Of a stretch of DNA of 64,000 nucleotides, positions 16,159-57,490 are shown piece after piece; positions within the stretch are counted from its first letter, which is position 1, and each line of letters opens with the position of its first letter. A model generated the notes under the pieces. That model was not told the DNA's origin. It did no database searches and saw nothing but the letters and a program-made list of their open reading frames with translations. Both the position numbers and the translations under genes were made by a program. Origin of the DNA: Cyanidium caldarium (lineage: Eukaryota; Rhodophyta; Bangiophyceae; Cyanidiales; Cyanidiaceae); the NCBI GenBank assembly GCA_026184775.1, contig JANCYW010000001.1:372001-436000 (forward strand). Reading direction: 5' to 3'.

Positions 16159-18045
16159 ATGCGGGTGTCGCGGTTGCCGCTGGAGGTCATTCAACGGATA
16201 GCCAGTGGAGAGGTGGTTGACTCGCATCGGGCGGTCGTGCGCGAGTTGGTGGAGAACGCGTTGGACGCGGGCGCGCGACAGATTCAGGTGCACGTGCGCG
16301 ATGGCGGGCGGGAGCTGTTGGTGGTGGACGACGGCGGCGGGATGGACGCGGCCGACTTGGAAGCCAGCATATTGTTGAATACTACCAGCAAGCTGTGCAC
16401 GCTGGAGCAGTTGGTGGCGGGTCAGGTGGGTACGTTGGGATTTCGGGGCCAGGCGCTGTGGGCCATCGCGCATCGCGCCGCCGCCGTGCACATTCGCTCG
16501 ATGGTATCGGGAGCGCCGCACGGACATGAGCTGCGCACCGGGCTGCGAGACACATCCGACGGTCGCAACGGTATGGAGGTGAGCGTGCATGTGGTGGCCG
16601 CAGTGCCGGGCACGATGGTGCGGGTGTGCGGCTTGTTCGAGCGCGAGCCGCTGCCGCTGCATGCAAACCGGTCGGCGCGCCTGGATGCCGACGAGCGCCG
16701 CCAACTGGTGCAGTTTATCGAGCACACTGCCCTGGCGCATCCGCAGACCAGTTGGCGCGTGCACTGGGATGGATGTGAAAAGGTGCGCTTGTTCGCCACT
16801 CTTTCAGACTCGATGGAGCCGGCCACATCCCGCTCATCATCCGCCTCCCGCGATGTGTTTGTGCAAGTGTTCGGCATCGCACCCGCCCACCTGGTGTCGG
16901 CCTCTGGTCCGGTCACCGACGGAATGGTGGAGTGTGTGGTAGCGCTGCCCGAACACGGTCACCATCGCGCTCGCCCCGACCACATCGTCATCGCCATCAA
17001 CGGCCGCGTCGTGCAGACCGCCGCCCTAACGCAAGCGGTGATGCAGGCGCTGCGGCGCTGCGTGCCACCGGGCCGTTATCCGATGTGCTGGGTGCAGGTG
17101 CGCTGCAGCGGCGCGTTTGTCGACTGGAACGTGCACCCGATGAAGACGCAAGTGCGGTTGCATGACGAACGGCGCTGGGCGGAGGCGGTGCAGGGCACGT
17201 TGCAGCAGGCGATGGCGCTGCGAGTGGGGCAGCCGATTGCCGGGTGGGAGACATCGATGGCGGAACCGATGTGGCGACAGCTCTGGGAGCATAGGCGAGT
17301 CGATGCGCCGTGGGATACGCCTACGACGGAAAACGAGGCGGACGAAATGTTCTCTGCGCCGCTGTGGCGGTTACGAGTGGTGGCGCAACTGCAGCGCACC
17401 TACATCGTGGCGGAGGAGGATGTGGACGCGGACGACACCGGAGGCGGCGTGTGGTTGATCGAGCAGCATGTTGCGCACGAACGAGCATTATACGACGAGT
17501 TGCAGCGGGAGCGCGAACAGATCGTGCAGCACACCCGGGCCTTGCCGCAACCGCTCCGACTGCACGGTCCGTTCACCGCGGCAGAGCGTCGGGCGCTGCG
17601 CGACGCCCTCGGCCTGCACATTGCCGAATGCGGTCCGCTGGAGTGGCGGTTGGAACGGGTACCAGAACGCGTGTGGCAATGGGTGGAAGCGGAGCCGTCG
17701 GCGTCCCGGTCGCAACTGACACAACTGGTGCGCTATTTGCAGTTGGCGGATGGCATGGAGCAATGTCTGGCCACCGTGGCCTGCCGGTTGGCGGTGCGGA
17801 ACGGCACCGCTCTCAGCGTCGACCGAATGCAGCGTCTGGTGGATGCGTGGGTGCGCAGTCGTATGCCGCGTACCTGTCCGCACGGCCGACCGATCTTTTG
17901 GCGTATCAGCGCCGCGGAGCTGGCGCGACGGTTTCGTCGGCGATACCGCCCGCTGGGCAACGGGGAGGCGGCGGCGGGCGGAGGGAGCGGAGACGGCAAC
18001 GCGGAGGCGGGGCGCCGGACGGTCTCACCGGTAGAACCATGCTGA
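16159..18045 (+). CDS. MutL-family mismatch repair protein, PMS1/PMS2 or MLH3 type
   Basis: A 628-residue MutL homologue. The start is fixed by the family's N-terminus (LPLEVIQRIASGEVV). The GHKL ATPase has Glu29 and Asn33 in ELVENALDAGA, numbered as in E. coli MutL, then VDDGGGMD, NTTSKL and GFRGQAL, where nearly all relatives have GFRGEAL. The C-terminal dimerisation/endonuclease part carries IEQHVAHERALYDE, VACRLAVRNG and CPHGRPIF. These correspond to the metal-binding DQHAX2EX4E, ACR and CPHGRP motifs of PMS2 and MLH3, which MLH1 lacks. The first motif is a variant (Glu for Asp, Asp for the last Glu). The tail is basic and Gly-rich, and its last 140 bases overlap the convergent glycosyltransferase gene. 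PMS1/PMS2 is more likely than MLH3, but I cannot decide. Confidence 0.88.
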   Translation: MRVSRLPLEVIQRIASGEVVDSHRAVVRELVENALDAGARQIQVHVRDGGRELLVVDDGGGMDAADLEASILLNTTSKLCTLEQLVAGQVGTLGFRGQALWAIAHRAAAVHIRSMVSGAPHGHELRTGLRDTSDGRNGMEVSVHVVAAVPGTMVRVCGLFEREPLPLHANRSARLDADERRQLVQFIEHTALAHPQTSWRVHWDGCEKVRLFATLSDSMEPATSRSSSASRDVFVQVFGIAPAHLVSASGPVTDGMVECVVALPEHGHHRARPDHIVIAINGRVVQTAALTQAVMQALRRCVPPGRYPMCWVQVRCSGAFVDWNVHPMKTQVRLHDERRWAEAVQGTLQQAMALRVGQPIAGWETSMAEPMWRQLWEHRRVDAPWDTPTTENEADEMFSAPLWRLRVVAQLQRTYIVAEEDVDADDTGGGVWLIEQHVAHERALYDELQREREQIVQHTRALPQPLRLHGPFTAAERRALRDALGLHIAECGPLEWRLERVPERVWQWVEAEPSASRSQLTQLVRYLQLADGMEQCLATVACRLAVRNGTALSVDRMQRLVDAWVRSRMPRTCPHGRPIFWRISAAELARRFRRRYRPLGNGEAAAGGGSGDGNAEAGRRTVSPVEPC

Positions 18046-19189
18046 GGCGGGCGCTGGCGGCGAACGGTGGTGGGAGAAGTGTGCGGGCATCCCGCAATAG
18101 CGCCCGCGCGTAGCGGAAGAATAAACCGCCCGGCGCGCTGGCTGACGATGGTGAGGACGATGCCGGCAACCACTGGAGATGCCGGAGGAATCGCCGATGG
18201 GACTTGTGCGCCCACAGATGGATCGCCAACGGCATCGACGATAGCGGCGATTCCGTGCCTCTCACGGCCGTTTTCGACACATTTCGTTCGGTGCTCTCGA
18301 CGATGTCGTCATCGTCGCTGCTCCCCACGAACAACGCATGCAGACCGTGTTCATCCCACAACGGCTCGTAGAGCGCCTCGGGCGGGAGGACGTGAATCTG
18401 ATGCGGAAACTGCCGGTGTAGCGCCGCGGGCAACTTCACCGAATGGTGATTCCAACAGTGCCAGCAGGGCACCGAGCGCATGGCGTACAGCCATTGTGCG
18501 AGGAACGGAGCGCCCGGGCGCGCTACGATCACCGCGTTGCCCAGACCGATGTCGCCTTCGCGTCCCAGCACCACCCCGCCGGGTGCCTGAGCGGCTGTAT
18601 GTCGCAGATCGTCCAGCGCCGGATGGCAGGCTAGCACGTCCATATCCAAGTACACGCCACCGTATCGGTACAGCAGCTGCAACCGCAGCACGTCGGAGCG
18701 CTGCGCGCCACTGGTCAGCGGCCGGCCGGCGTACTGGTGCGCCACACGCACCCGTCGCGTCTCCACCAGCGGCAGCGTCCGTCGCCACCAGGCGTTACCG
18801 CCTGGCGCAGCCGCCGGATCGTGGCCGTAGTGCAGCAGGATGCGGGTGTCGGCCGGCAGGTACGTGCGCACCGCCAACACCGCCAAGTACTGCACGACGC
18901 CGTACTCCTTGCCGTCAAAATCGGCCGCCAGACCGAAGATGAAATGCACCAGGCGCGGCACGGCATCCCTCAGATGTCGCACTGGAGGCGTCTGCCCGGC
19001 GGCGGTGGTGGAGGGCAGAGGCGCGGGTGATAGGAGCGACGACGACGCATACCGCTCTCCTGGTGATCCTCGCATAGATCCATTTCGTGCAGCGACCGAC
19101 TCACCAGCGCCCCCCAACATCAAGGCGCACACCATCAACGTCGCCCACATTACCCCATATCGTCTCCGGGTTCGTCGGCGTTGGTTCAT
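17906..19189 (-). CDS. DXD-motif glycosyltransferase (GT32-like), type II membrane protein
   Basis: A 427-residue putative Golgi glycosyltransferase. The ATG at 19189 gives a basic N-terminus (MNQRRRTRRR), one membrane segment at about 14-35, a stem, and a catalytic domain with PRLVHFIFGL, RSDVLRLQLLYRYGGVYLD and the nucleotide-sugar-binding Asp182-x-Asp184. This is the layout of the sugar-binding DXD family (OCH1/GT32 and alpha-1,4-GalT-like enzymes). Donor and acceptor cannot be read from sequence. An acidic insert (SSDDDDIVES) and a Pro/Arg-rich C-terminal tail are unusual. The tail overlaps the MutL gene by 140 bases on the other strand. It is a paralogue of the gene at 19398 and head-to-head with it (208-base gap). 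Confidence 0.82.
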   Translation of the reverse strand: MNQRRRTRRRYGVMWATLMVCALMLGGAGESVAARNGSMRGSPGERYASSSLLSPAPLPSTTAAGQTPPVRHLRDAVPRLVHFIFGLAADFDGKEYGVVQYLAVLAVRTYLPADTRILLHYGHDPAAAPGGNAWWRRTLPLVETRRVRVAHQYAGRPLTSGAQRSDVLRLQLLYRYGGVYLDMDVLACHPALDDLRHTAAQAPGGVVLGREGDIGLGNAVIVARPGAPFLAQWLYAMRSVPCWHCWNHHSVKLPAALHRQFPHQIHVLPPEALYEPLWDEHGLHALFVGSSDDDDIVESTERNVSKTAVRGTESPLSSMPLAIHLWAHKSHRRFLRHLQWLPASSSPSSASAPGGLFFRYARALLRDARTLLPPPFAASARLSMVLPVRPSGAPPPRCRLRSLRPPPPPRCPAGGIADETVAPAPRR

Positions 19190-19397
19190 GCGACGGAGAA
19201 CGACTCGACCAAGTATGCGAGAAAAATCGAAACTGCTGCGCAATCCGCGCCGCCGCCCATTCCTGACTGGTCCCGACGCGACGCCCGCGATTTCGATTTG
19301 CCGCTGGCAGCGAACCGCGCTCCGGTAATCTTCGCGCCCGTGTCCGGCTGTCACCGCAGCATCGTGCACAGAGCACCCGACCAGAGTGCATACAGGA

Positions 19398-20351
19398 ATG
19401 AAGAGACATAGAGGGCGCATTCGATGGGGGTGGTTCGTGCTGGTAAGTTTATGTATCTGGTGGTGCATTTCCGGGGGCTATCGCGGGAACTCTGAAACCT
19501 CGGGGCACCTGCCGCCGAAATGCTCGGCGACTTGTCTATCTGCACCCACTCCCCGTGTCGTCCATTTCGTATTCGGCCTAGACGCCACAGATGAATTCGG
19601 GTTTACGGAATACCTCAGTGTGCTGGCCGCGCGCCGACGATGCGCTGCCGACACGTGGGTGCTGCTGCACCTCGGTCGATCGTCCAGCACCTCCAACCGC
19701 TGGCTCACCGCTGCCCTGCAATGGCCGCGAGTGTTAGCCCGGCCGGTGCGCGTACCGAGGCACCTCGGCCGGTGGCCGGTGCGCCATGCTGCCCATGCGG
19801 CCGATTGGCTGCGGTTGGAGGTGCTGGCGCGCTTTGGCGGACTCTACCTCGACGCGGATGTGTGGGTGCTGCGCGATCCTTTCGACCTCGTCGACAGAAC
19901 TGGTGCCGCTTGCGGTATCGGCGTGGAGACGGTGGAGGATGGCGGCGACCGCACCGTCGGTCTGTGCAATGCGGTGCTGTGGTCCGTGCTGGGTGGCTGT
20001 CCGCTTCTCCACCGCTGGATGCTGGCGTACCGGTCGTTTCAGCCGTGGCACTGGAATCGCTTCAGCGTGGTGTTGCCGTGGCAATTGGCGCAACGCTGGC
20101 CGGCCGAGATACATCAAGTACCCGCCCGGGCCTTCTTTCCTTTCTCCTGGGATGCCCTCGGCTTGCGCGCTTTGTACGGCAATCGCAGCCGGGCAGCGTG
20201 GTCGCGGGTGGAGGCGGCGCATGCCGTGCACCTCTGGGCGCATGCCGCTCAACGCGCTGGCTTTCCGGTGCGCTCGCTCACCGCGCAGGAGTGCCTTCGA
20301 CGCAACACCACATTGCACGCTATCGCTCGAAGTATTCTCAGTGAAGTGTAA
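19398..20351 (+). CDS. DXD-motif glycosyltransferase (GT32-like), paralogue of the neighbour
   Basis: A 317-residue type II membrane protein: basic start MKRHRGRIRW, membrane segment at about 11-26, and a catalytic domain with PRVVHFVFGL, ADWLRLEVLARFGGLYLD and Asp152-x-Asp154. It shares these blocks and a C-terminal HLWAH motif with the divergently transcribed gene at 17906-19189, so the two are an inverted duplicate. It lacks that protein's acidic insert and long tail. The frame opens at a GTG at 19386, but the first ATG is 19398. Likely a Golgi enzyme building cell-wall or secreted glycans; substrate unknown. Confidence 0.82.
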   Translation: MKRHRGRIRWGWFVLVSLCIWWCISGGYRGNSETSGHLPPKCSATCLSAPTPRVVHFVFGLDATDEFGFTEYLSVLAARRRCAADTWVLLHLGRSSSTSNRWLTAALQWPRVLARPVRVPRHLGRWPVRHAAHAADWLRLEVLARFGGLYLDADVWVLRDPFDLVDRTGAACGIGVETVEDGGDRTVGLCNAVLWSVLGGCPLLHRWMLAYRSFQPWHWNRFSVVLPWQLAQRWPAEIHQVPARAFFPFSWDALGLRALYGNRSRAAWSRVEAAHAVHLWAHAAQRAGFPVRSLTAQECLRRNTTLHAIARSILSEV

Positions 20352-20482
20352 AGTGGAACGATCGACGTCGACGGATGCTCGAACGGGGACATGCCCTCGA
20401 AGCGACATTTTCGAGTTGCCACGGCGCGCGTCGAGGCCGTCGAGTACGTAGACGTTTCCGTACGAGTTTGAACACACGAGAC

Positions 20483-21127
20483 ATGACCATTCGCTCGGCG
20501 TTCTGCACACCGTGCAATGCGTTTCGACTCCCGCGCAACAAGTGCCGACGAGACGACCCGTCCCGCCGTCTCTGCATGCTGGTGTGCAACCGTCGCGAGG
20601 CCCTGCTCACCTTGTTGGGATGGGCGCTGGCAACGCCGGCAGCCCTCAGGTTCACCCCTGCCCCGGGTCTGACCGCGCCAGCCTCTGCAGCTGCTTCGGC
20701 CAAGTCGCGACGGACGCTGGCCAAGTGCCCGGCCACTTCCAATTGTATCTCGTCCACTTCGGTGGGCAACCCGTCCAAGTACGGTGCGCCGTGGTCGTTC
20801 GCCGAAGTGACGGACGATCCGCAGGCGGCGTGGCGCTCGCTGCAGGAGGCGTTGCAGCAGCAGCCGAACGTGCAGATCGTGGAGTCCGATGACGCGTACG
20901 TGCACGCAGTGTCGCCCAGTCGGTTCCCGTCACGCGGCACCGACGACCTGGAGTTTCTGATGCGGCCGGAGGAGCGGCTGGTGTTGTACCGTTCGGCGTC
21001 ACGGGACACTCAGTACATCTATCCCTTCGCGCAGCCGCTGAGTGACTTTGGGCACCACCAGCGCCGTCTTGATGAGATTCGGGAACGGCTCGGCTGGCGG
21101 CCGTTGGACTGGAATCAAGTTTACTAG
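20483..21127 (+). CDS. DUF1499 protein, probable thylakoid lumen
   Basis: A 214-residue protein from the ATG at 20483 (MTIRSAFCTPC). The mature part matches DUF1499: a CPATSNCISS motif, a central AWRSLQEAL helix, DDAYVHAVSPSR, DDLEFLM, and YRSASR before a terminal RRLDEIRERLGW helix. The N-terminus looks bipartite: a basic transit region, then a twin arginine (NRREALL) with a hydrophobic stretch and Ala-rich cleavage region. This suggests Tat-dependent import into the thylakoid lumen, where plastid members of the family are found. Molecular function is unknown. It lies between the two glycosyltransferase/paralogue pairs, with no obvious functional tie. Confidence 0.8.
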   Translation: MTIRSAFCTPCNAFRLPRNKCRRDDPSRRLCMLVCNRREALLTLLGWALATPAALRFTPAPGLTAPASAAASAKSRRTLAKCPATSNCISSTSVGNPSKYGAPWSFAEVTDDPQAAWRSLQEALQQQPNVQIVESDDAYVHAVSPSRFPSRGTDDLEFLMRPEERLVLYRSASRDTQYIYPFAQPLSDFGHHQRRLDEIRERLGWRPLDWNQVY

Positions 21128-21315: not shown

Positions 21316-21759
21316 TCAGCAATCCATCACTCCGGTGATCGTGGTGGGTGCAGTCACGTCCGCCGGACACAGGAAGCGGTACAGCACTCGCTCGGCGGCA
21401 GCACACTCCAGCACCATGTTCGCCGCACTGCCCGAGCCGCTCGACGCTCGCACCAAAGTCTGAAAACGCCCCTCGCCCCAACGGTACTCCCGCTCCGGCC
21501 CGTCGTGCGCCACCAACACCTGTTTGTGTTGGGACACCTCCCAATGATTCAAGTCATTCAACAACATCAGCGCCTCGTTGCGCAGCACAGCGTTCTCCAC
21601 CGCTAGCCGCTCCGACTCGCTCATGGCGTCGCCAGCCACTGGAACCACGGCCGCCGCCGTCGCCGCCGCCACGAACAACAAGAAGAGGAACGCAACGCGC
21701 GCCCACCTCCCCAGGCGATCCCGACATCCTCCTGCGCGCGCAAAACCCCCACTCTGCAT
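21316..21759 (-). CDS. novel small membrane-anchored protein A (three-Cys family)
   Basis: A 147-residue protein from the ATG at 21759. It has a basic N-terminus, a membrane segment at about 21-42, a leucine-rich helical stretch (ERLAVENAVLRNEALMLL) and a C-terminal domain of about 45 residues. The C-terminal signature is VRAS, then LECAAAERVLYRFLCP and TITGVMDC, with Cys119, Cys131 and Cys147. The divergent gene at 22103 has the same architecture and the same cysteine spacing. I know no named family with this signature. Topology suggests a type II protein with the Cys domain in the secretory lumen or outside the cell. The frame extends to 21792 but only from a GTG. Confidence 0.72.
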   Translation of the reverse strand: MQSGGFARAGGCRDRLGRWARVAFLFLLFVAAATAAAVVPVAGDAMSESERLAVENAVLRNEALMLLNDLNHWEVSQHKQVLVAHDGPEREYRWGEGRFQTLVRASSGSGSAANMVLECAAAERVLYRFLCPADVTAPTTITGVMDC

Positions 21760-22102
21760 GACTCGCTGGCAGGTTCGAGGTGGCGGCTTCACTGCAGCGC
21801 GAACACCTCACCTGTGCTACCGATACGAAAAGCGTGCACGCAGACACGCACGCGCAACCGATGCAGTTCGCGCGAGGCGCTCGGTGCGCGCTGCCGCGAT
21901 GAAACAGCGCAGCGGGGCAGCGAACACGTCGAGGAGAAATGCGTGACACGCAACGCCGCCAAAAACAATGCGTGCGATCGATGTGCGCGCCGATCGCTCG
22001 ATGCGCCCGGCGCGGTGGCAAGCCTGCCAGGAGCGCGTGCGGGCGCGGCGAGGATGCGTGTCGGGTATTTTGCCTGCCGCGAGAGCTAGTGGCCGATCGG
22101 CG

Positions 22103-22537
22103 ATGACGGGCATCACGGGGAAGCGGGTAGGGATGGATCGGGGCGCGTGGGTGTTTATTGCAATGGCTGTGGTGGCGCTGTTGGCGGGCATGAGCTCGGT
22201 GGGTGCGCGCAGTGGTGGCGAGGCGCGTCACTCCGTGGAGCTGTTACGAGCCGAGCGCGCCCAGTTGCACCTGCTGGTGCGTGAGTTGCGAGCGGCAGTG
22301 CAATCGGGCGGCAAGGGTGCGTTGCCGAGTTTCACGCGGGATCAGCTGGATGCGCTGTTGTTCGGAAGCGCGCAGCAGCGGGGGGTGGCTTTGAAGCAGT
22401 CGGCGGTGCGAGCGTCGGCCACAAACGGCGATCTGGTGTTGGAGTGCTCCGCGGCCGGTAAGCTGCTGTACCGCTTCTCGTGTCCGAGTGGCGGCTCGAC
22501 GCCGTCGACCTTTACCGGAGTGGCCACCTGCACTTGA
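22103..22537 (+). CDS. novel small membrane-anchored protein B (three-Cys family)
   Basis: A 144-residue paralogue of the neighbouring minus-strand gene: membrane segment at about 15-34, coiled-coil-like ELLRAERAQLHLLVRELR, then VRAS, LECSAAGKLLYRFSCP and TFTGVATCT. Cys115, Cys127 and Cys143 have exactly the spacing of protein A (C-x11-C-x15-C). The frame is open to an ATG at 21968, which would add 45 basic residues; 22103 is preferred because it gives the same architecture as protein A. An ATG at 22133 is also possible. The two genes are head-to-head, about 340 bases apart. Function unknown; a secretory-pathway role is inferred from topology and glycosyltransferase neighbours. Confidence 0.7.
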   Translation: MTGITGKRVGMDRGAWVFIAMAVVALLAGMSSVGARSGGEARHSVELLRAERAQLHLLVRELRAAVQSGGKGALPSFTRDQLDALLFGSAQQRGVALKQSAVRASATNGDLVLECSAAGKLLYRFSCPSGGSTPSTFTGVATCT

Positions 22538-22590: not shown

Positions 22591-24021
22591 TCATTGTATC
22601 CGTTGGGCGTACCGCTGCAACACCGCTTCCGTATACGCAAGCATACCGCGCCGCGAGAGGAACGCGAGGGCAAAGTGGTTGGCGTTGCTCGCCAACTGGC
22701 GCGCGTCGCGGTCGCGGCGGCGCAGCCATCGTATCCGCTGGGGCAGGTCGCGGAACGACATAGTGCAGGGCACGGTGTGCACAAACGGTTGCAGGAGCGG
22801 CTCGAAGAAGGATCCACACGGTGATTGCTGTTGCAGCACCACCTGCGAGCCGTGCAGCTGGCGCCACAGTCGATCCGCCCAACCGCAGTTGCCCTCGGCG
22901 TACACGGCGTAGCGAAAGCGTCGCTGTTGCTGCAACGGCGACAGCGCTGCCGGGTCATCGCGATGACCGGCGCTCCATGCCATGTCGAGCAAGCGCGGAT
23001 GGCGACGGGCGCGGCGCCATAGCGACTCTCGGCCATACGCCAGGGCGGTCTGCCAAACGGCGGTATGGTCGGTCGCGTTTAGCGGAGATACTGGCCGCAG
23101 ACGCGCCGCCAACGCGTCCCGCCGGCCGCCGCGGAACACCGCCTGCGCCTGCCGCTCCTGCCATCGTGCACGCTCCGCAGCATACAGCGCGCAACTTACG
23201 TCCCAGTCATCGAAGCCGGCTCCGTGGCCGGCCCGCATGCCGGGCGCGCCCGCTTCGAACACCGGCAACGGAATGTCGTCGCTTAGTGAACTGCAGTGAA
23301 TGGTGGTGAAAATGGGTCGGGGATCGCTTTCCGCATAAAAGGGCATCTTGGCGTACGCCGACCGCCGTCGCACCGTCTGCACACAATCGTGCACGCACTG
23401 CACCAGGGCGAATCCGGCCTGCGGTAGACGCGCGGCCTGCAGCAGCTGCGCCGTCCACCGCAATCGCCGCTGCCAGAACGGCTTGCGCGCTGCCGTTGCC
23501 GCACCAGTCACATTGTACGGGTCGTGCAGCGTGGCAGTACCGTTGCGTACCCGCCATAACACGCAACCGGTGGCCTTGCGCGCCCCGCTCGGCATCGTAG
23601 CGTATCGTTGACGCCGCAGCGTCTCGAGTGCGTTACGCAGGAGACGGCGCCCGCTCTGTGCAGCGAACGGCGCCAAGTATCGTTTTGCGAGTGCCTGCAG
23701 TGTGGCAACGACCTCCTGGTCAGTGTACCATCGTTCGGGTACTCGTGCGGGAGGCGAGCGGAGTGTCGACGAGTCATCTAGCAAACGCCAGTCGTCCCCC
23801 AGCAACTGGGAGAGCCGCTCTCCTCTCGATGCCCAGCTCGTCCACTTCTGTAGCGCCGGTGGCACAAGCGCCCACAAAAGGAGGCACACGGCGAGCAGCG
23901 TCAACCACGCCGGCCCTCTCCTGCCTTTAGACACGAGGCGGGAGGGAGCCGGCCGCCACCGCCGCCGGCGCGCTACACCAACGCTCGACGACCTATATGG
24001 CAGGCATCCGGGAGAGCCCAT
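22591..24021 (-). CDS. GT90 (CAP10/POGLUT-like) glycosyltransferase
   Basis: A 476-residue type II membrane protein: basic N-terminus, membrane segment near residues 38-57 (WLTLLAVCLLLWALVPP), then a GT90 catalytic domain. Recognisable blocks are PIFTTIHCSS, DDWDVSCALYAAERARW, VFRGGRRDAL, FRYAVYAEGNCGWADRL, SPCGSFFEPLLQPFVH and a C-terminal HFALAFLSRRGMLAYTEAVL. GT90 enzymes transfer xylose or glucose in the ER/Golgi (fungal capsule xylosyltransferases, animal protein O-glucosyltransferases). The acceptor here is unknown. The ATG at 24021 is the first in frame. It converges with small protein B (53-base gap). Confidence 0.83.
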   Translation of the reverse strand: MGSPGCLPYRSSSVGVARRRRWRPAPSRLVSKGRRGPAWLTLLAVCLLLWALVPPALQKWTSWASRGERLSQLLGDDWRLLDDSSTLRSPPARVPERWYTDQEVVATLQALAKRYLAPFAAQSGRRLLRNALETLRRQRYATMPSGARKATGCVLWRVRNGTATLHDPYNVTGAATAARKPFWQRRLRWTAQLLQAARLPQAGFALVQCVHDCVQTVRRRSAYAKMPFYAESDPRPIFTTIHCSSLSDDIPLPVFEAGAPGMRAGHGAGFDDWDVSCALYAAERARWQERQAQAVFRGGRRDALAARLRPVSPLNATDHTAVWQTALAYGRESLWRRARRHPRLLDMAWSAGHRDDPAALSPLQQQRRFRYAVYAEGNCGWADRLWRQLHGSQVVLQQQSPCGSFFEPLLQPFVHTVPCTMSFRDLPQRIRWLRRRDRDARQLASNANHFALAFLSRRGMLAYTEAVLQRYAQRIQ

Positions 24022-27950: not shown

Positions 27951-28436
27951 GATAGAGACAGTCTGGAGCGAAGAGAATGGGTGACGAGGCGACAGGAGAT
28001 GGAGGCTGCCACCCTCGAGCTGTGGATCCACGTTCAACGTCCGATCGGTGTGTCGGACGAAATGGCTGCGGCATCTCGGGTGCCAACACGAAAAATGGCC
28101 AGTGAATTCATCGGTTTGATGGAAATCATCAGGAACAACTACCTCGGTGCGAAAGTTTGATAGCACTCGCACACTGATTCAAACGCCAGCCGAGAGCGGT
28201 GATCTACTCAAGTTTCGTCCGAGCTCACTGTTGATGGGAGGGCTCCTCGGTCGTGGGACAGGCCACCAGCTGCTGGTCGGTGCGCACCTGGCTCGAAAAG
28301 ACCACGTCGAGCACTCTGAACGACACCGTGACTTGTCAACGAAAGTTCCTCATTCCTTTACACGATGTCGATGCTGTCCAAACTATTCGTTCCGTGTTGC
28401 CTGCGGCATGTGTGTCCTGTCCTCTACGCTCCGCCC
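27951..28436. other. intergenic region between PFK and the fasciclin array
   Basis: About 490 bases that hold the PFK promoter and the 3' end of the first fasciclin gene. The PFK frame is open upstream to 28172 but has no ATG there. No gene is evident. Confidence 0.4.
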
Positions 28437-29183
28437 TCAATAGGGCTTTTTCACCACCTGGACAACCGTCTTGGTCACAATCGGTTGCACCGTCTTGGTC
28501 ACGACAGGTTGGAAGATCTTGGTCACAATCGGTTGCACCGTCTTGGTCACGACAGGTTGGAAGATCTTGGTCACAATCGGTTGCACCGTCTTGGTCACGA
28601 CAGGTTGGAAGGTCTTGATCACGACAGGCTGGATAGTCGGCGGTATGGCCTCTATCTGCTGAAACAATTGCTCAAAACTCGGTGGCACCAGCACGCCGTT
28701 GATGATGTGAATGACGCCCAGGTCGAAGAAGATGTCCGCCTTGATCACCTCCTTCCCGTTCACCGTGATGGAGGTGGGCATACCATCTATGGTGACGTAC
28801 TCATTGTCGAAAAGCGTTTTCGCCTGGATGATGCCCTTGCCGTACAACTGCTGCGCGGTGGTGGTACCCGGCAAGATGTGGTACAGCAGCACATCCGCCA
28901 ACACCGTCGGATGCTCTTTCAGATACTGCAAAAGGCTCGGGGGTAACGCCTGGAACGCGGCGTTGTCCGGCGCAAAGATAGTGATGGTCTTTTGCTCCTT
29001 TTGCAGCTCCTGCAGCTGCGGCTGCAACGTTTGCAGCGCCAGCGTCACCAGCGTCGAGATCTGCGGATACTCCTGGCCAATCTGGGACAGTGTCTGCGCC
29101 TGCGCCGGGCCACTCGACAACAGGAGGAAGAATACCATCATCCAGGTGGCCCAGAAGAACGTGTTCTTGCGTGCAATGCTCAT
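28437..29183 (-). CDS. secreted fasciclin-domain protein 1, with C-terminal repeat tail
   Basis: A 248-residue protein with a signal peptide (core WMMVFFLLLSSGPAQAQ) and one FAS1 domain. The FAS1 blocks are TIFAPDNAAFQALP (H1), YHILPGTTTAQ and DLGVIHIINGVLVP (H2). After the domain comes a tail of about 70 residues made of alternating QPVVTKT and QPIVTKI units, ending VVKKPY. It is encoded by a 48-base minisatellite. Unlike its three neighbours it has no N-x-S/T site. FAS1 proteins act in cell adhesion and wall structure. It is the most downstream gene of a four-gene same-strand array. Confidence 0.88.
   Translation of the reverse strand: MSIARKNTFFWATWMMVFFLLLSSGPAQAQTLSQIGQEYPQISTLVTLALQTLQPQLQELQKEQKTITIFAPDNAAFQALPPSLLQYLKEHPTVLADVLLYHILPGTTTAQQLYGKGIIQAKTLFDNEYVTIDGMPTSITVNGKEVIKADIFFDLGVIHIINGVLVPPSFEQLFQQIEAIPPTIQPVVIKTFQPVVTKTVQPIVTKIFQPVVTKTVQPIVTKIFQPVVTKTVQPIVTKTVVQVVKKPY
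28471..28638 (-). repeat. 48-base coding minisatellite, about 3.5 copies
   Basis: Three copies of a 48-base unit (28471-28518, 28519-28566, 28567-28614), identical except for one base near the end of the third, then a diverged half copy. Each unit itself consists of two related 24-base halves. Read on the minus strand it gives a 16-residue unit rich in Val, Thr, Lys and Gln-Pro in the tail of fasciclin protein 1. The near-identity of copies suggests recent expansion. Confidence 0.93.
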
Positions 29184-29507
29184 ATTGGCGAGAAGTGCTG
29201 CGTATGGAAGTTGAATTCACCGGGAAACGTCACTAGAATGTATGAGAGAAAACCAAAGTGAACGACTGGGATCACGTTCCAACGGAACGCGCCAGAACTC
29301 GGAATCTGATGGCGTATTGTTTTCGGTGAGCACGTCGCTAGCACAGCCACGTGGCACGCGCTCCACAAACTTGAACTTCTTTCCTTTAGCCTCTCTCTCA
29401 GACTATCCAACAAGGCAATGCACTCCGCTCTCCACTACTCGGCTCTGGTACTTCGGTCCGCTACGCTTCCTCATCCAACGCTGTCCCTCCACTTCGACTA
29501 GCATATT
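29184..29507. other. intergenic region in the fasciclin array
   Basis: About 320 bases containing the promoter of fasciclin gene 1 and the 3' end of gene 2. I see no gene. Confidence 0.4.
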
Positions 29508-30035
29508 CTATCCAAGCAGTTCATGTCTCAGATTGGTGGGCACCAGGACGCCGTCGATGATGTGAATGACACCTAGGTCGAAGAACACGTCGGGCGTGAT
29601 GACCTTGTTGCCATCCACGGTGATTGAGGTGTTGGTGGCGTTGATGAGCACCGAGCTGTTGTCGTACAATGTTTTCGCCTCTATCAATCCCTCGCCCAGC
29701 AGATCGTGCGCGGTGATGTTGCCGCGCAAGATGTGGTTCAGGAGCACGTCCTTGAGCAGCGTGTGATTCGTGTGTAGCCGGTCCAACACCGCATGCGGCA
29801 GTGCATCGAACGCAGAGTTGTCTGGCGCGAAGACGGTGATGGTTTCGTGGCGCGCGGCGATTGTGCTCAACTCGGAGCCCAGCGTCTCGTTGGTGAGCGT
29901 GACGAAGGTAGAAATGTCCGGGTGCTCCCGCTCCACCTCCGAAAGCGACTGCGCATGCAGCGGCCTGGTCGCGGATAGGAGGGCGAACAGGATCCAGCAC
30001 ACCGCGGAGAGGATGGCGACGAATGAACGCTTCAT
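29508..30035 (-). CDS. secreted fasciclin-domain protein 2
   Basis: A 175-residue protein: start at the ATG at 30035 (MKRSFVAIL), signal peptide ending near LHAQS, and one FAS1 domain with VFAPDNSAFDALP, LLNHILRGNITA and DLGVIHIIDGVLVP. It ends directly after the domain (ELLG). Six N-x-S/T sites (NET, NHT, NIT, NSS, NAT, NTS) suggest a heavily N-glycosylated secreted or wall protein. It is exactly as long as proteins 3 and 4. Confidence 0.9.
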   Translation of the reverse strand: MKRSFVAILSAVCWILFALLSATRPLHAQSLSEVEREHPDISTFVTLTNETLGSELSTIAARHETITVFAPDNSAFDALPHAVLDRLHTNHTLLKDVLLNHILRGNITAHDLLGEGLIEAKTLYDNSSVLINATNTSITVDGNKVITPDVFFDLGVIHIIDGVLVPTNLRHELLG

Positions 30036-30268
30036 ACTGAAAGTTGAACGCGTCGGAATTGTTTTCTGGGAGGAAGGACAAAAGCGGAAATCTACGACGA
30101 AAAATAGGACAGCCGCCGCGGGTGAATGCACCAGGACCGTCCGAATCTGTCACGTGACGGATTTCACAGATTCTTCTCGGGGCAGCCTCGTTACGAGGCG
30201 GACCCTCACGCACCACGTCCTCCCATGCAAGCGCCGGAATTATTTCAACCGCTGCTCACGTACCGCCC

Positions 30269-30796
30269 TCATCCCAACAAATCGCTTCTAAACTCTGGCG
30301 GGATCAGCACACCGTCGATGATATGGATCACGCCCAGGTCGAAGAACACGTCGGGCGTGACGACCTCGTACCCATTCACGGTCACGCCGGAAGCATTCGC
30401 CTCGATCAGCACCGTGTTGTTGTCGAATAGCGTCTTGGGCCGGAATGCGCCTCTCTCCTCCAGGTCACGCGCCGTGTAGTTGCCGTGGAGCATGTGATAC
30501 AGCAACACATCCTGGAGCAGCGTGTGGTTGCGCTCCAGGTTGGCCAGTGCCCCCTGCGGAAGCGCACGGATCGCCGTGTTCTCTGGAGCAAAGATGGTGA
30601 GCGTCTCGTGGGCTGCTTGCAACGCCTCCACTTGACCACCCAGGGTCTCGTTGAAGTAGCTGATGGCGATGATGATTTCCGGGTGTTCGGATTCCACCTG
30701 CGCTAAAGTCTGCCCTTGCGAGGGTGCGGTGCAGGAGAGGAGCGTGCACAAGATGCTCGATATGAGCAGAAGTAGGGCCAATACGGGGCGGCTCAT
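30269..30796 (-). CDS. secreted fasciclin-domain protein 3
   Basis: A 175-residue protein from the ATG at 30796 (MSRPVLALLLL), with a signal peptide and one FAS1 domain: IFAPENTAIRALP, LLYHMLHGNYTA, DLGVIHIIDGVLIP and the terminal DLLG. Five N-x-S/T sites (NET, NHT, NYT, NNT, NAS) coincide with those of protein 2. It is closest to protein 2 by eye. The frame is open further upstream without a sensible protein, so the ATG before the signal peptide is chosen. Confidence 0.9.
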   Translation of the reverse strand: MSRPVLALLLLISSILCTLLSCTAPSQGQTLAQVESEHPEIIIAISYFNETLGGQVEALQAAHETLTIFAPENTAIRALPQGALANLERNHTLLQDVLLYHMLHGNYTARDLEERGAFRPKTLFDNNTVLIEANASGVTVNGYEVVTPDVFFDLGVIHIIDGVLIPPEFRSDLLG

Positions 30797-31178
30797 CTTG
30801 CCTGTGCTTAATAATATGAGGAGCGCTAACAGCGCGGATGTGAAGGGGAGTGTCGGTAGGAGGGGAATATTATTCTGGGCACATCGGTGGTGCCGGAACG
30901 CATCTTCTTCGGCGAACGATGTAACGTGACGAAATTGAGAACCCCAATACCTCTCGAGCTGAACCAGTGCCAGCAGAGTCACAGTTTGCTCCACATGAGG
31001 TGGCGGCACCACGTCGCATTGGAAGCTTCCTTATGCACACTGCAGCACTTTTTACTCGACTCTCTTGCTTTCCGATGGCAGGCCATTTCCCTTTCTTGCA
31101 TCTCCCGTGGCCATCCACTTTCCCGCTCCCGTCTTGCTCCCGCCTCGCTCCTGGCCGTCGCCCCTTCTCACACCCTTC
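30797..31178. other. intergenic region in the fasciclin array
   Basis: About 380 bases between fasciclin genes 3 and 4; promoter of gene 3. No gene is evident. Confidence 0.4.
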
Positions 31179-31706
31179 CTACCCGAGTATCTCTCTCGTC
31201 AGGCTGGGCGGGACCAGCACCCCGTCGATCGTGTACACGGTGCCCAGATCAAACGGGAATCCCGGCTTGACCACCCGGAGCCCATTGACCGTGATAACCC
31301 GACTCGACGCACGTATCAGAATCGTCTGGTTGTCGTACAGCGTGTGCGCCCGGAAACGACGTCTGACGATCAGCTCTGGCTTGGTAAGGTTGCCCAGGGT
31401 CACGTGATATAGCAGCACGTCGTTCAGCAGCGTGTGGTTCTGATGCAGCTTGCGCGTCACCCGCGCTGGCAGCCGGCGGAACGCCGTATTATCGGGTGCA
31501 AACACTGTCACCAGCGTGCGGCTTGTACTCAGCGTCTCTGCCTCGCGCAGCAACGTCGCGTTCGCCAACGTAAAGAACGTGCTCACGTCCGGGTGCTCAG
31601 CCACAAATTCCGACACCGTCTGCGCCTGCAGCGGCCGGGCCAGGAGCGCAAAGGCACCCAGGATCAGCAAGAGGTAGCTCGCAGCAGTGATGAACCTGGC
31701 GCGCAT
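31179..31706 (-). CDS. secreted fasciclin-domain protein 4
   Basis: A 175-residue protein from the ATG at 31706 (MRARFITAASYLLLILG), with signal peptide and one FAS1 domain: VFAPDNTAFRRLP, LLYHVTLGNLTKPE, DLGTVYTIDGVLVP and terminal EILG. It is the most diverged of the three 175-residue copies and has more Arg. Four N-x-S/T sites (NAT, NHT, NLT, NQT) lie at the positions shared with proteins 2 and 3. It is the outermost gene of the array, head-to-head with plastid trigger factor. Confidence 0.9.
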   Translation of the reverse strand: MRARFITAASYLLLILGAFALLARPLQAQTVSEFVAEHPDVSTFFTLANATLLREAETLSTSRTLVTVFAPDNTAFRRLPARVTRKLHQNHTLLNDVLLYHVTLGNLTKPELIVRRRFRAHTLYDNQTILIRASSRVITVNGLRVVKPGFPFDLGTVYTIDGVLVPPSLTREILG

Positions 31707-32315
31707 GGTTATGAAGACGTGTACGCGGGAAACGCCAAACCTCGTGCGATACACGTGGCAACGAAACGCAGTCGCAGGGCAAACTTCGGCAAAGTTCCCG
31801 AGTAAAACTTGGACATTCTACTGTACCACACAAGACGTTGAGCATTTCGTCTGGCTGGTGAGAGTATGCATCAAAAAGGCGTTGTCGCCCAGCGGCGAGT
31901 GCTTCTTCCAGTGGCGACCTAGACTCGCCGGCAACTTGTGCCCTGCCACACGCAACCCGAATCTTTCTTCTGAAGCCCACAAATCGCGCCGCTACGAATG
32001 CTCGCGTACGCAGTCGGCACATCAGCTCTCCCAACAGAACGTGTCCCCAGCTCAAGGCTTACATTCTCGCCTTCTCGCGCCCTGATCCCTCCCCACTACC
32101 CCACTTCTTGCCTCTGTCCCAAATTCCGTGCCCGCTGCCCAACTTGTCGCGTTCGCCCGTTGCCCTCATCCCTCGCGCATTCTCCCGGCACCCTATCGGC
32201 GCTCCTCTCATCTCGCACTTCACCTCATACGCGAAAACACGCTTCGCCGGCGCGATCGTCTCGTCGTCCACCGCTGTTTCTTGCCTCGTCTCACAACCGC
32301 CGCGTTCTCTGCCTC
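31707..32315. other. divergent intergenic region
   Basis: About 610 bases between fasciclin gene 4 and trigger factor. The trigger factor frame is open from an ATG at 31998, but the extra 106 residues look like translated leader (Pro/Ser/Arg-rich). Presumably two promoters. Confidence 0.4.
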
Positions 32316-54963: not shown

Positions 54964-56897
54964 TCACAACAGCGGTTGCGCCATGTGTAGCAGAAACTGC
55001 CGCGCGAAATGCAGTGCCGACTCCACGTCCACCCCGATGTACGCGTCCAGGATGAACTGCGAGATCCAGCGCGGCAGTTTCTGCAGCTGCGACGGACGGG
55101 CATATCGCCGGTCGGCGAACACCATAATGCCATAGTCGCGTTTGTTGCGTATCACCCGGCCGACGCACTGCGCTGCCTGCCGCATGGCGTCGAAGATGAG
55201 AAAGTCGTCTTCGCGGATGCGGTACTGCTCGTGCAGAAACGCCAACCGCGCCCGCAGGATGCGCGACTCGCTGTACTGGAAGGGCACACCGAACAGCAGC
55301 ACGCAGCGGCCGTAGTGTCCGTCAAAGTCGATGCCCTCGGCGGCCTTGCCGCGCGCCACCGACAGCAGGACCGCGCCGCGTCCGGCATCGCAGGCGACGC
55401 GAAAGTTGCACAGCGCCGCGTTGGCCTCCAGCGCGTCCGGCGTCTCGATGAACACCAGTTTGGTGTGGCGCACGCGCTCCAGCATCCCGGTGGCGATCCA
55501 CGCGCTGAGCACGCCCTGCAGAAACTCGTAGCTGGGGAAGAAGCACACCACCCCATCGGGCACCGCCGCGGCCATGCGCAGCAGCAGTTCGCCGTAGTTG
55601 CGCGCGATGGACGGCTCGCTGCGCAGGCTATACTGCGAGCTGAGCAGCGTCTGATCGCTGCCGCGGGTGACGATCAGCGGACAGATACACTCGCGTTGCA
55701 GCGACATGGGGAACGATTCGGCCACCGAGGCGCGGAAGCTCAGCATGCGCGGATACACCCACAGCGGGCTGAGCGTGCCCGAGGTGATGATCACGCACTG
55801 GAACTTGTCGAACACGGGTTTCACCGCCAGCGAGGCGTCCAAGCAGGCCAGGTGCAGCACCCGCTCCTCAGGTTCGTTGAGCACCACAAAACCGGCGGGA
55901 TACGTGCCGATGAGCGAGCAGAATTCGGCCACTTTCTGCAGCGGCAGAAACGCCGTCCAGTCGCTCAGCTCCAGCGTCCACAGCAGCGACACCAGTCGCT
56001 CGCTGACAAAGCGCAGCGCGCGCGGCTCGTGTCGGGTCTCGGCACAGAGGCGGGCGCGGAATCCCAGCGGCGACTGCTGCCGCGCCACGCTGTCGCCACT
56101 GGTCTCCGGCCGCAGAAACTGCAGCGCGGCGCGCAGAAACGCCAGAAAGTCGTCGGCTTTGCGGAATTCGTTGCCCGGCAGCGAATCCGCCAACGCATCG
56201 TGATCGCGGCCGTCGGTGGCCTGTATTACGGGCGCGGCCAGTTCGCGCTCCGCCAGGCGCTGCTCGGCAGCCGACAACCCGCGCATCAACCGTTCGTATG
56301 CGCGCGACAGCCGCCGCGCCCCGGCGCGCTTCACCTCCAACAACCGGCCCGCCAACGCATTCAGGTTGCGCGTGGCCTGTTCCAGCAGCCGCTCGCTCAC
56401 GTCGATGCTCAGCGCCTCGATGCACACGTTGTCGATGTTGTGCGCCTCGTCGAACACCACCACCGAAGCCTCCCCGAAACCGCTGCTGACCACGCGCGCC
56501 ACCCGCGGATCGATCAGGTACTGGTAGCTGAATACCACCACCTGCGCCAGGGCGATGCAGCGGCGGGCCAGAAAGTACGGACACCAGTGGCGGCGGCGGC
56601 CGAGTTCGCGCAGATCCTGCAGCGTGTACACGCCGCCGGCAGGCAGGATAAAGTCGCGCCCGGTGCCCTGCTCCAGCTCCTCGTAGAATTCACACAGCGC
56701 GGGGGCGGTGCTGCGGTCGCCGTCGATGCCATCGCCGGCGTCACGTTGCACGGCCGCGCTGGCGGCAGCAGCCCGCTCCCGCACCCAACTGGCGGTGCGC
56801 GCGCGACACCCGCTATCCACGCCTTTGCTGCACCGCAACACCTCCTCGTTGATGCACAGGTGATTGCGCGACGCCAGACCCAAACTGAGCAACGACG

Positions 56898-56929
<32 letters not shown>

Positions 56930-57237
56930 CCGTCCTTGGCGGCGGCGGCAGCAGCGTTGCCTCGCACCAGCAACCGCAACTCCTGCAGCACCTTCTCCAT
57001 CTCCTCCACGGTGCGCGTGCAGTACACCAGCCGACGATATCGCGACGGGTGCCGCCTCAGGTACGCCACCACCAAGCTGAGGATGGTGACCGTCTTGCCG
57101 GTGCCCGATGGCATCTCAAACAGGCCGTGCCCGCCGCCGTCCAACACCCGCTTCAGCGCGTGCATGTACTGCCGCTGCTCGGCGTACAGCGACGGGTACG
57201 GAAACTCCACCGCCAGGTCCTCGATGTCGACCAACAT
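54964..57237 (-). CDS. XPD: XPD/Rad3 DNA helicase of TFIIH
   Basis: A 757-residue 5'-3' helicase of TFIIH used in nucleotide excision repair and transcription initiation. The N-terminus (FPYPSLYAEQRQYMHALKR) and Walker A MPSGTGKT (42-49) are canonical. The four iron-sulphur cysteines are Cys128, Cys144, Cys182 and Cys219 (HLCIN, GCRART, LCEFYEE, HWCPYFLAR); DEAH is at 263-266. Motifs IV-VI follow (VVCFFPSYEFLQGVL, VARGKAAEGIDF, QCVGRVIRNKRDYGIM). Compared with human XPD there is an Ala/Asp-rich insertion at about 95-115 with a poly-Asp run, and a longer spacing between the second and third Cys. Confidence 0.96.
56896..56927 (-). repeat. (GAC)n coding repeat (poly-Asp) in XPD
   Basis: A run of GTC triplets on the plus strand, read as consecutive Asp codons between helicase motif Ia and the first iron-sulphur cysteine of XPD. 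Confidence 0.75.
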
Positions 57238-57490
57238 GACGGAGGGAGCAGGTGGTGGCGGGAGGAGCTACGAAAGTAGAGCGCATGTCCGCGGCACTGA
57301 CGTGCTCTAATTAGCGTACCAAGACGTCCGCAAACGGACAACGGACAAGCGACACACGTTCCGCAAGCAGTCAGGTTCCCACCGCCGGGGCCGAGGGGCG
57401 CGGAGATGCTCGGCGAGCGGTGCGTCCCCACCACTGCGGAACGCTCGTATGCTCCTCATACTGCAGCGTATGCACCAGTTCATTGAGTGT

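Follow-up and report, generated by a model that had tools for sequence, protein, structure and literature searches.

A 64-kb window (64,000 nucleotides) of the Cyanidium caldarium genome contains two small divergent genes, A and B, together with several duplicated neighbors (Table 1). The first-pass annotation had described open reading frames of 147 and 144 residues at these positions, and both were recovered as described. Their C-terminal domains carry cysteines C119, C131, and C147 in A and C115, C127, and C143 in B. A fourth cysteine of A, C12, precedes its hydrophobic stretch, so the description of A and B as three-cysteine proteins holds for the part after that stretch, where both have the spacing C-x11-C-x15-C, and fails for the whole A chain. 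G+C content by codon position (0.66/0.51/0.77 in A and 0.63/0.57/0.78 in B) resembles that of four other genes in the window. The start of B at 144 residues is backed by a relative, P0004, with the same starting place. The database form of A, P0008, has 102 residues (21316-21624, minus strand); with its start at the internal residue M46, it does not include the hydrophobic stretch, and the start of A is therefore not certain. Any putative promoter shared by the two genes would sit in the region between their start codons. A scan of this region for bacterial promoters and terminators was discarded, as it has no meaning in this organism.

Table 1. The A/B pair and its neighbors, with positions in the window
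Feature	Positions	Strand	Description
Glycosyltransferase ORF with DXD motif (PF04488)	17906-19468	-	Head-to-head paralogue of 19386-20351
Glycosyltransferase ORF with DXD motif (PF04488)	19386-20351	+	
DUF1499 protein	20375-21127	+	Left neighbor of A
Gene A	21316-21759	-	147 aa; N-terminus basic; hydrophobic at residues 22-39, then a helix and the three-Cys domain at the C-terminus
Region between the ATGs of A and B	21760-22102	none	343 bases
Gene B	22103-22537	+	144 aa; N-terminus basic; hydrophobic at residues 14-35, then a helix and the three-Cys domain at the C-terminus
Glycosyltransferase family 90 (PF05686)	22591-24021	-	Right neighbor of B
Four tandem fasciclin genes (FAS1, PF02469)	28440-31754	-	

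A and B had been called paralogues, and direct comparison of the two proteins bears this out. Half of the aligned C-terminal residues (24/48) are identical, with a BLASTP E value of 4e-14, and the Smith-Waterman score of 125 against a maximum of 50 among 1000 shuffles rules out a chance resemblance. On this alignment, A and B are divergently oriented paralogues. We rejected the cysteine spacing as stand-alone evidence because the pattern is not rare, with 12 occurrences across all six reading frames of the window, A and B included; the signal is carried by the aligned domain around the cysteines. Pairwise likeness between the N-terminal halves is not significant (92 of 1000 shuffles attain the score). 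When matched to a profile built from the remaining five family members described below, the N-terminal half of A scores 6.0 bits, a value attained by 4 of 2000 shuffles, and common descent of the whole chains is thus weakly supported.

Searches of the organism's own genome (8,787,356 bases in 20 contigs, with the window on contig 1) found only A and B, whether A, B, or the relative P0007 was used as the query. We also searched a collection of about 5.8 billion proteins, restricted to predicted proteins of 0.55 to 1.75 times the query length. With B as the query, 5 of 187 candidates matched, one being the protein encoded in the window and the other four being relatives outside it (P0004 to P0007). 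A six-row profile, scored on the 7995 candidates with the most shared words, gave six matches, namely the same four relatives and two proteins of the window itself. With A as the query, no orthologue was found among 432 candidates, the sole match being the window's own shorter form. P0004 is 90% identical to B and probably comes from another C. caldarium strain, and the search with A found no orthologue from this strain either. The first-pass annotation had looked to a profile search for members elsewhere, which the four relatives now provide. As relatives of B were found but an orthologue of A was not, the pairing need not be general within the family.

All six sequences (A, B, and P0004 to P0007) keep the three C-terminal cysteines at identical spacing, within a domain that carries RA, VLEC, LYRFxC, and TxTGVxxC along with C-x11-C-x15-C. 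From these same six sequences we define an orphan three-cysteine family of Cyanidiales, a confinement drawn from one organism name and the absence of other matches. The only named relative is P0006 of Cyanidiococcus yangmingshanensis (hypothetical protein CCYA_CCYA11G3097), which has the same layout in 131 residues, the same three C-terminal cysteines, and identity to B at 24 of 31 core positions; the protein itself has no name and no assigned function.

Consistent with the earlier statement that no named family has this signature, a described domain was ruled out by the lack of significant matches in Pfam, NCBIfam, or PDB sequences. The best Pfam-A E values were 0.054 for A and 0.16 for B, short of the cutoff; across all six members, the best was 0.022, and no Pfam family matched more than one of them. 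NCBIfam, scanned with A and B, likewise gave subthreshold values of 0.071 and 0.15, respectively. The best E values among PDB sequences were 0.16 for A, 0.011 for B, and 0.19 for the profile; the best chain for B is named gp41-5, with no single stretch passing alone. When the low-confidence model of B was compared with known structures in Foldseek, 0 of 376 matches had an E value of ≤0.001. We found no description of the family in the available portions of the literature on CCYA11G3097, on fasciclin in Cyanidium, or on orphan or cysteine-rich genes of Cyanidiophyceae. By these searches, A and B belong to an undescribed small family with one named relative so far, from the same order. Lineage-restricted small secretory proteins are a known kind, and the A/B family and its neighborhood are new within the searches made.

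The two copies have not diverged equally. Identical residues of A and B use the same codon in 19 of 24 cases, where codon frequencies in ten long ORFs of the window predict 11.6 (P of about 0.001). Nei-Gojobori estimates are a dN of 0.41 and a dS of 0.88 on a short basis of 45 codons, and LWL85 gives 0.44 and 1.10; dN/dS is about 0.4 to 0.5, and dS is not saturated. The codon sharing, together with the unsaturated dS, suggests that the gene was duplicated within the Cyanidium line or that gene conversion took place afterward. However, A shares 17 of 31 core residues with B and 16 to 17 with the other members, and is no nearer to B than to these, a pattern also compatible with a more ancient duplication followed by gene conversion. 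Relative to three outgroups, A has 14 to 15 private changes in the C-terminal domain and B has 5 (gap columns counted), and by this count A has diverged faster than B. Among the 29 domain columns invariant in the other five members, A keeps 17, all three cysteines included, and alters 12. These column counts and the Nei-Gojobori estimates lend mild support to the claim that the domain is under selection.

Since relatives were found for B and no orthologue was found for A, A looks like a divergent duplicate. Such a duplicate could also be decaying or unexpressed, with B as the only working gene. The altered domain columns point in this direction, as do the failure to find an orthologue of A even from the strain of P0004 and the M46 start of the database form, which leaves out the hydrophobic stretch. 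However, the frame of A is open and without stops, the retained columns include every C-terminal cysteine, and dN/dS is about 0.4 to 0.5; we consider decay of A improbable.

Each of the six proteins begins with 10 to 28 residues ahead of an uncharged hydrophobic stretch of 18 to 26 residues, with a maximum mean hydropathy of 2.2 to 2.9. The charge before this stretch is net positive in all six and above that of the flank after it in all six, a difference that is small in B and P0004 (+2 versus +1). Under the positive-inside rule, these flank charges would place the C-terminal domain outside the cytosol, and we regard this exoplasmic topology of A and B as probable. By simple rules, all six sequences have a basic n-region, a hydrophobic h-region, and small residues at -3 and -1, with candidate small-residue cleavage sites within the hydrophobic stretch or downstream of it. 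This stretch may equally be a signal peptide or an anchor. The proteins had been described as membrane anchored; the hydrophobic stretch itself stands, and the anchor becomes one of two readings, as all six have candidate cleavage sites.

In mitochondrial sorting signals, a membrane segment can likewise follow a short basic N-terminus, and disulfides occur in the intermembrane space. The N-termini of A and B would therefore also fit mitochondrial proteins of the inner membrane, with the domain in the intermembrane space, or else plastid proteins. Against a mitochondrial location, in none of the six sequences are cysteines spaced as CX9C or CX3C. For the plastid, the short N-terminal part would leave little room for a transit peptide, and no significant match was obtained among PDB chains, which include red-algal photosystems; photosystem subunits were rejected on the same ground. 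An organellar location of either kind seems quite unlikely.

The region between the hydrophobic stretch and the cysteine domain had been called a Leu-rich helical stalk. AF2 predicts a helix here and strands in the C-terminal domain, with mean pLDDT values of only 49.4 and 53.0, and at this low confidence we infer no fold from the models. A heptad pattern is weakly indicated in the five B-type members, where 24 to 86 of 500 shuffles attain the score, and no heptad signal was detected in the stalk of A (383 of 500 shuffles). The helix is retained as a low-confidence prediction. The heptad result bears on the proposal that A and B form an obligate disulfide-linked, membrane-anchored heterodimer, coexpressed from the shared intergenic region. 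Three cysteines at equal spacing in both chains, the head-to-head arrangement, and the low-confidence helical stretch are what such a dimer would call for, but the stalk of A shows no heptad signal, and the finding of B relatives without an A orthologue suggests that B-type proteins elsewhere function without an A partner. We find an obligate heterodimer improbable.

Genes for glycosyltransferases flank A and B on both sides. The PF04488 ORFs, the minus-strand member of which we take to be "GT32," form a second head-to-head paralogue pair about 1 kb from A/B and are 36% identical over the aligned part. They overlap at their starts, so that at least one true start codon is internal, and the starts are unsettled. 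The plus-strand member is closer to its partner than to a third copy on contig 17. The flanking genes account for two of three PF04488 matches and one of three PF05686 matches in the genome, counts that are lower bounds. These glycosyltransferase families were examined for being neighbors, and their nearness is therefore no test. Golgi transferases have a short basic N-terminus, a hydrophobic stretch, a stalk, and a luminal domain. A and B match this layout and could be Golgi type II membrane proteins with an uncleaved anchor, acting as partners or chaperones of the neighboring glycosyltransferases. Whereas the N-terminal layout and exoplasmic domain are as in Golgi type II proteins, no catalytic domain was matched in A or B; moreover, this explanation leans on gene neighborhood alone, and the small-residue sites would permit cleavage. 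It is an unlikely account of the pair.

All four FAS1 matches in the genome (a lower bound) lie in the tandem array about 6 kb to the right of A/B. The array sits in a dip in G+C content (0.557 to 0.579 at 28001-32000, compared to about 0.65). A CTLH-RING gene and a phosphofructokinase gene lie between the PF05686 gene and the array, and the genes thus do not form a tight cluster. FAS1, LOX, and PF08030 (a stand-in for RBOH-type oxidases) were picked from the published work on these algae before their locations were known, and one of the three proved to be near A/B; LOX and PF08030 matches are on other contigs. Assuming uniform placement, the chance that one locus would land no more than about 10 kb from A/B is ~0.2%, or ~0.7% for three tries. 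The remaining window holds mostly housekeeping genes (38 ORFs scanned). At 54964-57279, a DEAD_2-type (XPD-like) helicase gene (757 aa, minus strand) is opposed by an open frame of 756 aa on the plus strand, which is most likely an effect of high G+C content.

The available portions of published work connect FAS1 and LOX with the cell wall of these algae. Both are reported to be expressed mainly in walled diploid cells; C. caldarium carries FAS1 as four and LOX as two tandem copies, and in Cyanidiococcus and C. merolae 10D each gene occurs once (PMC13353863); our genome matches, four and two, are the same as these counts. The accessible text describes the four-copy tandem array without mention of its place near A/B (PMC13353863). 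Cellulose synthase genes have been lost in these acid-living red algae, and the wall is reported to be largely protein (PMC13353863); a figure of 50 to 55% protein is given for the wall of "Cyanidium caldarium" (PMC6508830, PMC13353863), for a strain of uncertain identity (PMC13353863). As described in the parts available, the FAS1 and lysyl oxidase proteins of Cyanidiophyceae are of secretory type like A and B and are local duplicates in C. caldarium (PMC13353863, PMC6508830). However, A and B have no match to the FAS1 or LOX Pfam models, and whereas expression data exist for both FAS1 and LOX, and secretion data for LOX as well (strain RK-1, renamed Cyanidiococcus) (PMC13353863), A and B are known here from sequence alone.

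Based on the signal-type N-termini, the wall-linked neighbors, and the reported makeup of the wall, we propose that A and B act at the cell surface or in the wall, on the noncytosolic side, and that A is a divergent duplicate of the Cyanidium line, a tentative reading to which we assign a probability of roughly 0.45. A and B would be two members of a small orphan Cyanidiales family. The basic and hydrophobic N-terminal stretch would pass each chain through the endoplasmic reticulum membrane, such that the helical stretch and the three-cysteine beta domain end up outside the cytosol. A single disulfide may brace the small beta domain, leaving the third cysteine free to link chains, and the products could then serve at the cell surface or in the protein-rich cell wall. 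B would represent the conserved form of the family, and A would be an inverted, head-to-head duplicate that arose in the Cyanidium line and diverged faster.

A bolder extension of the surface or wall reading, which we hold to be a long shot, is that a 14-kb stretch around A/B forms a surface-building neighborhood in which three secretory gene families, the PF04488 pair, A/B, and the FAS1 array, were each locally duplicated. A and B would then be disulfide-linked structural subunits of a protein-rich, acid-proof wall, coproduced in walled diploid cells under the control of a single divergent promoter. A published method allows genes to be targeted in haploid cells of these algae, which have no wall (PMC13353863, in the part available). 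As a conserved orphan family near FAS1 genes, the proteins described here are testable candidates for surface or wall proteins.
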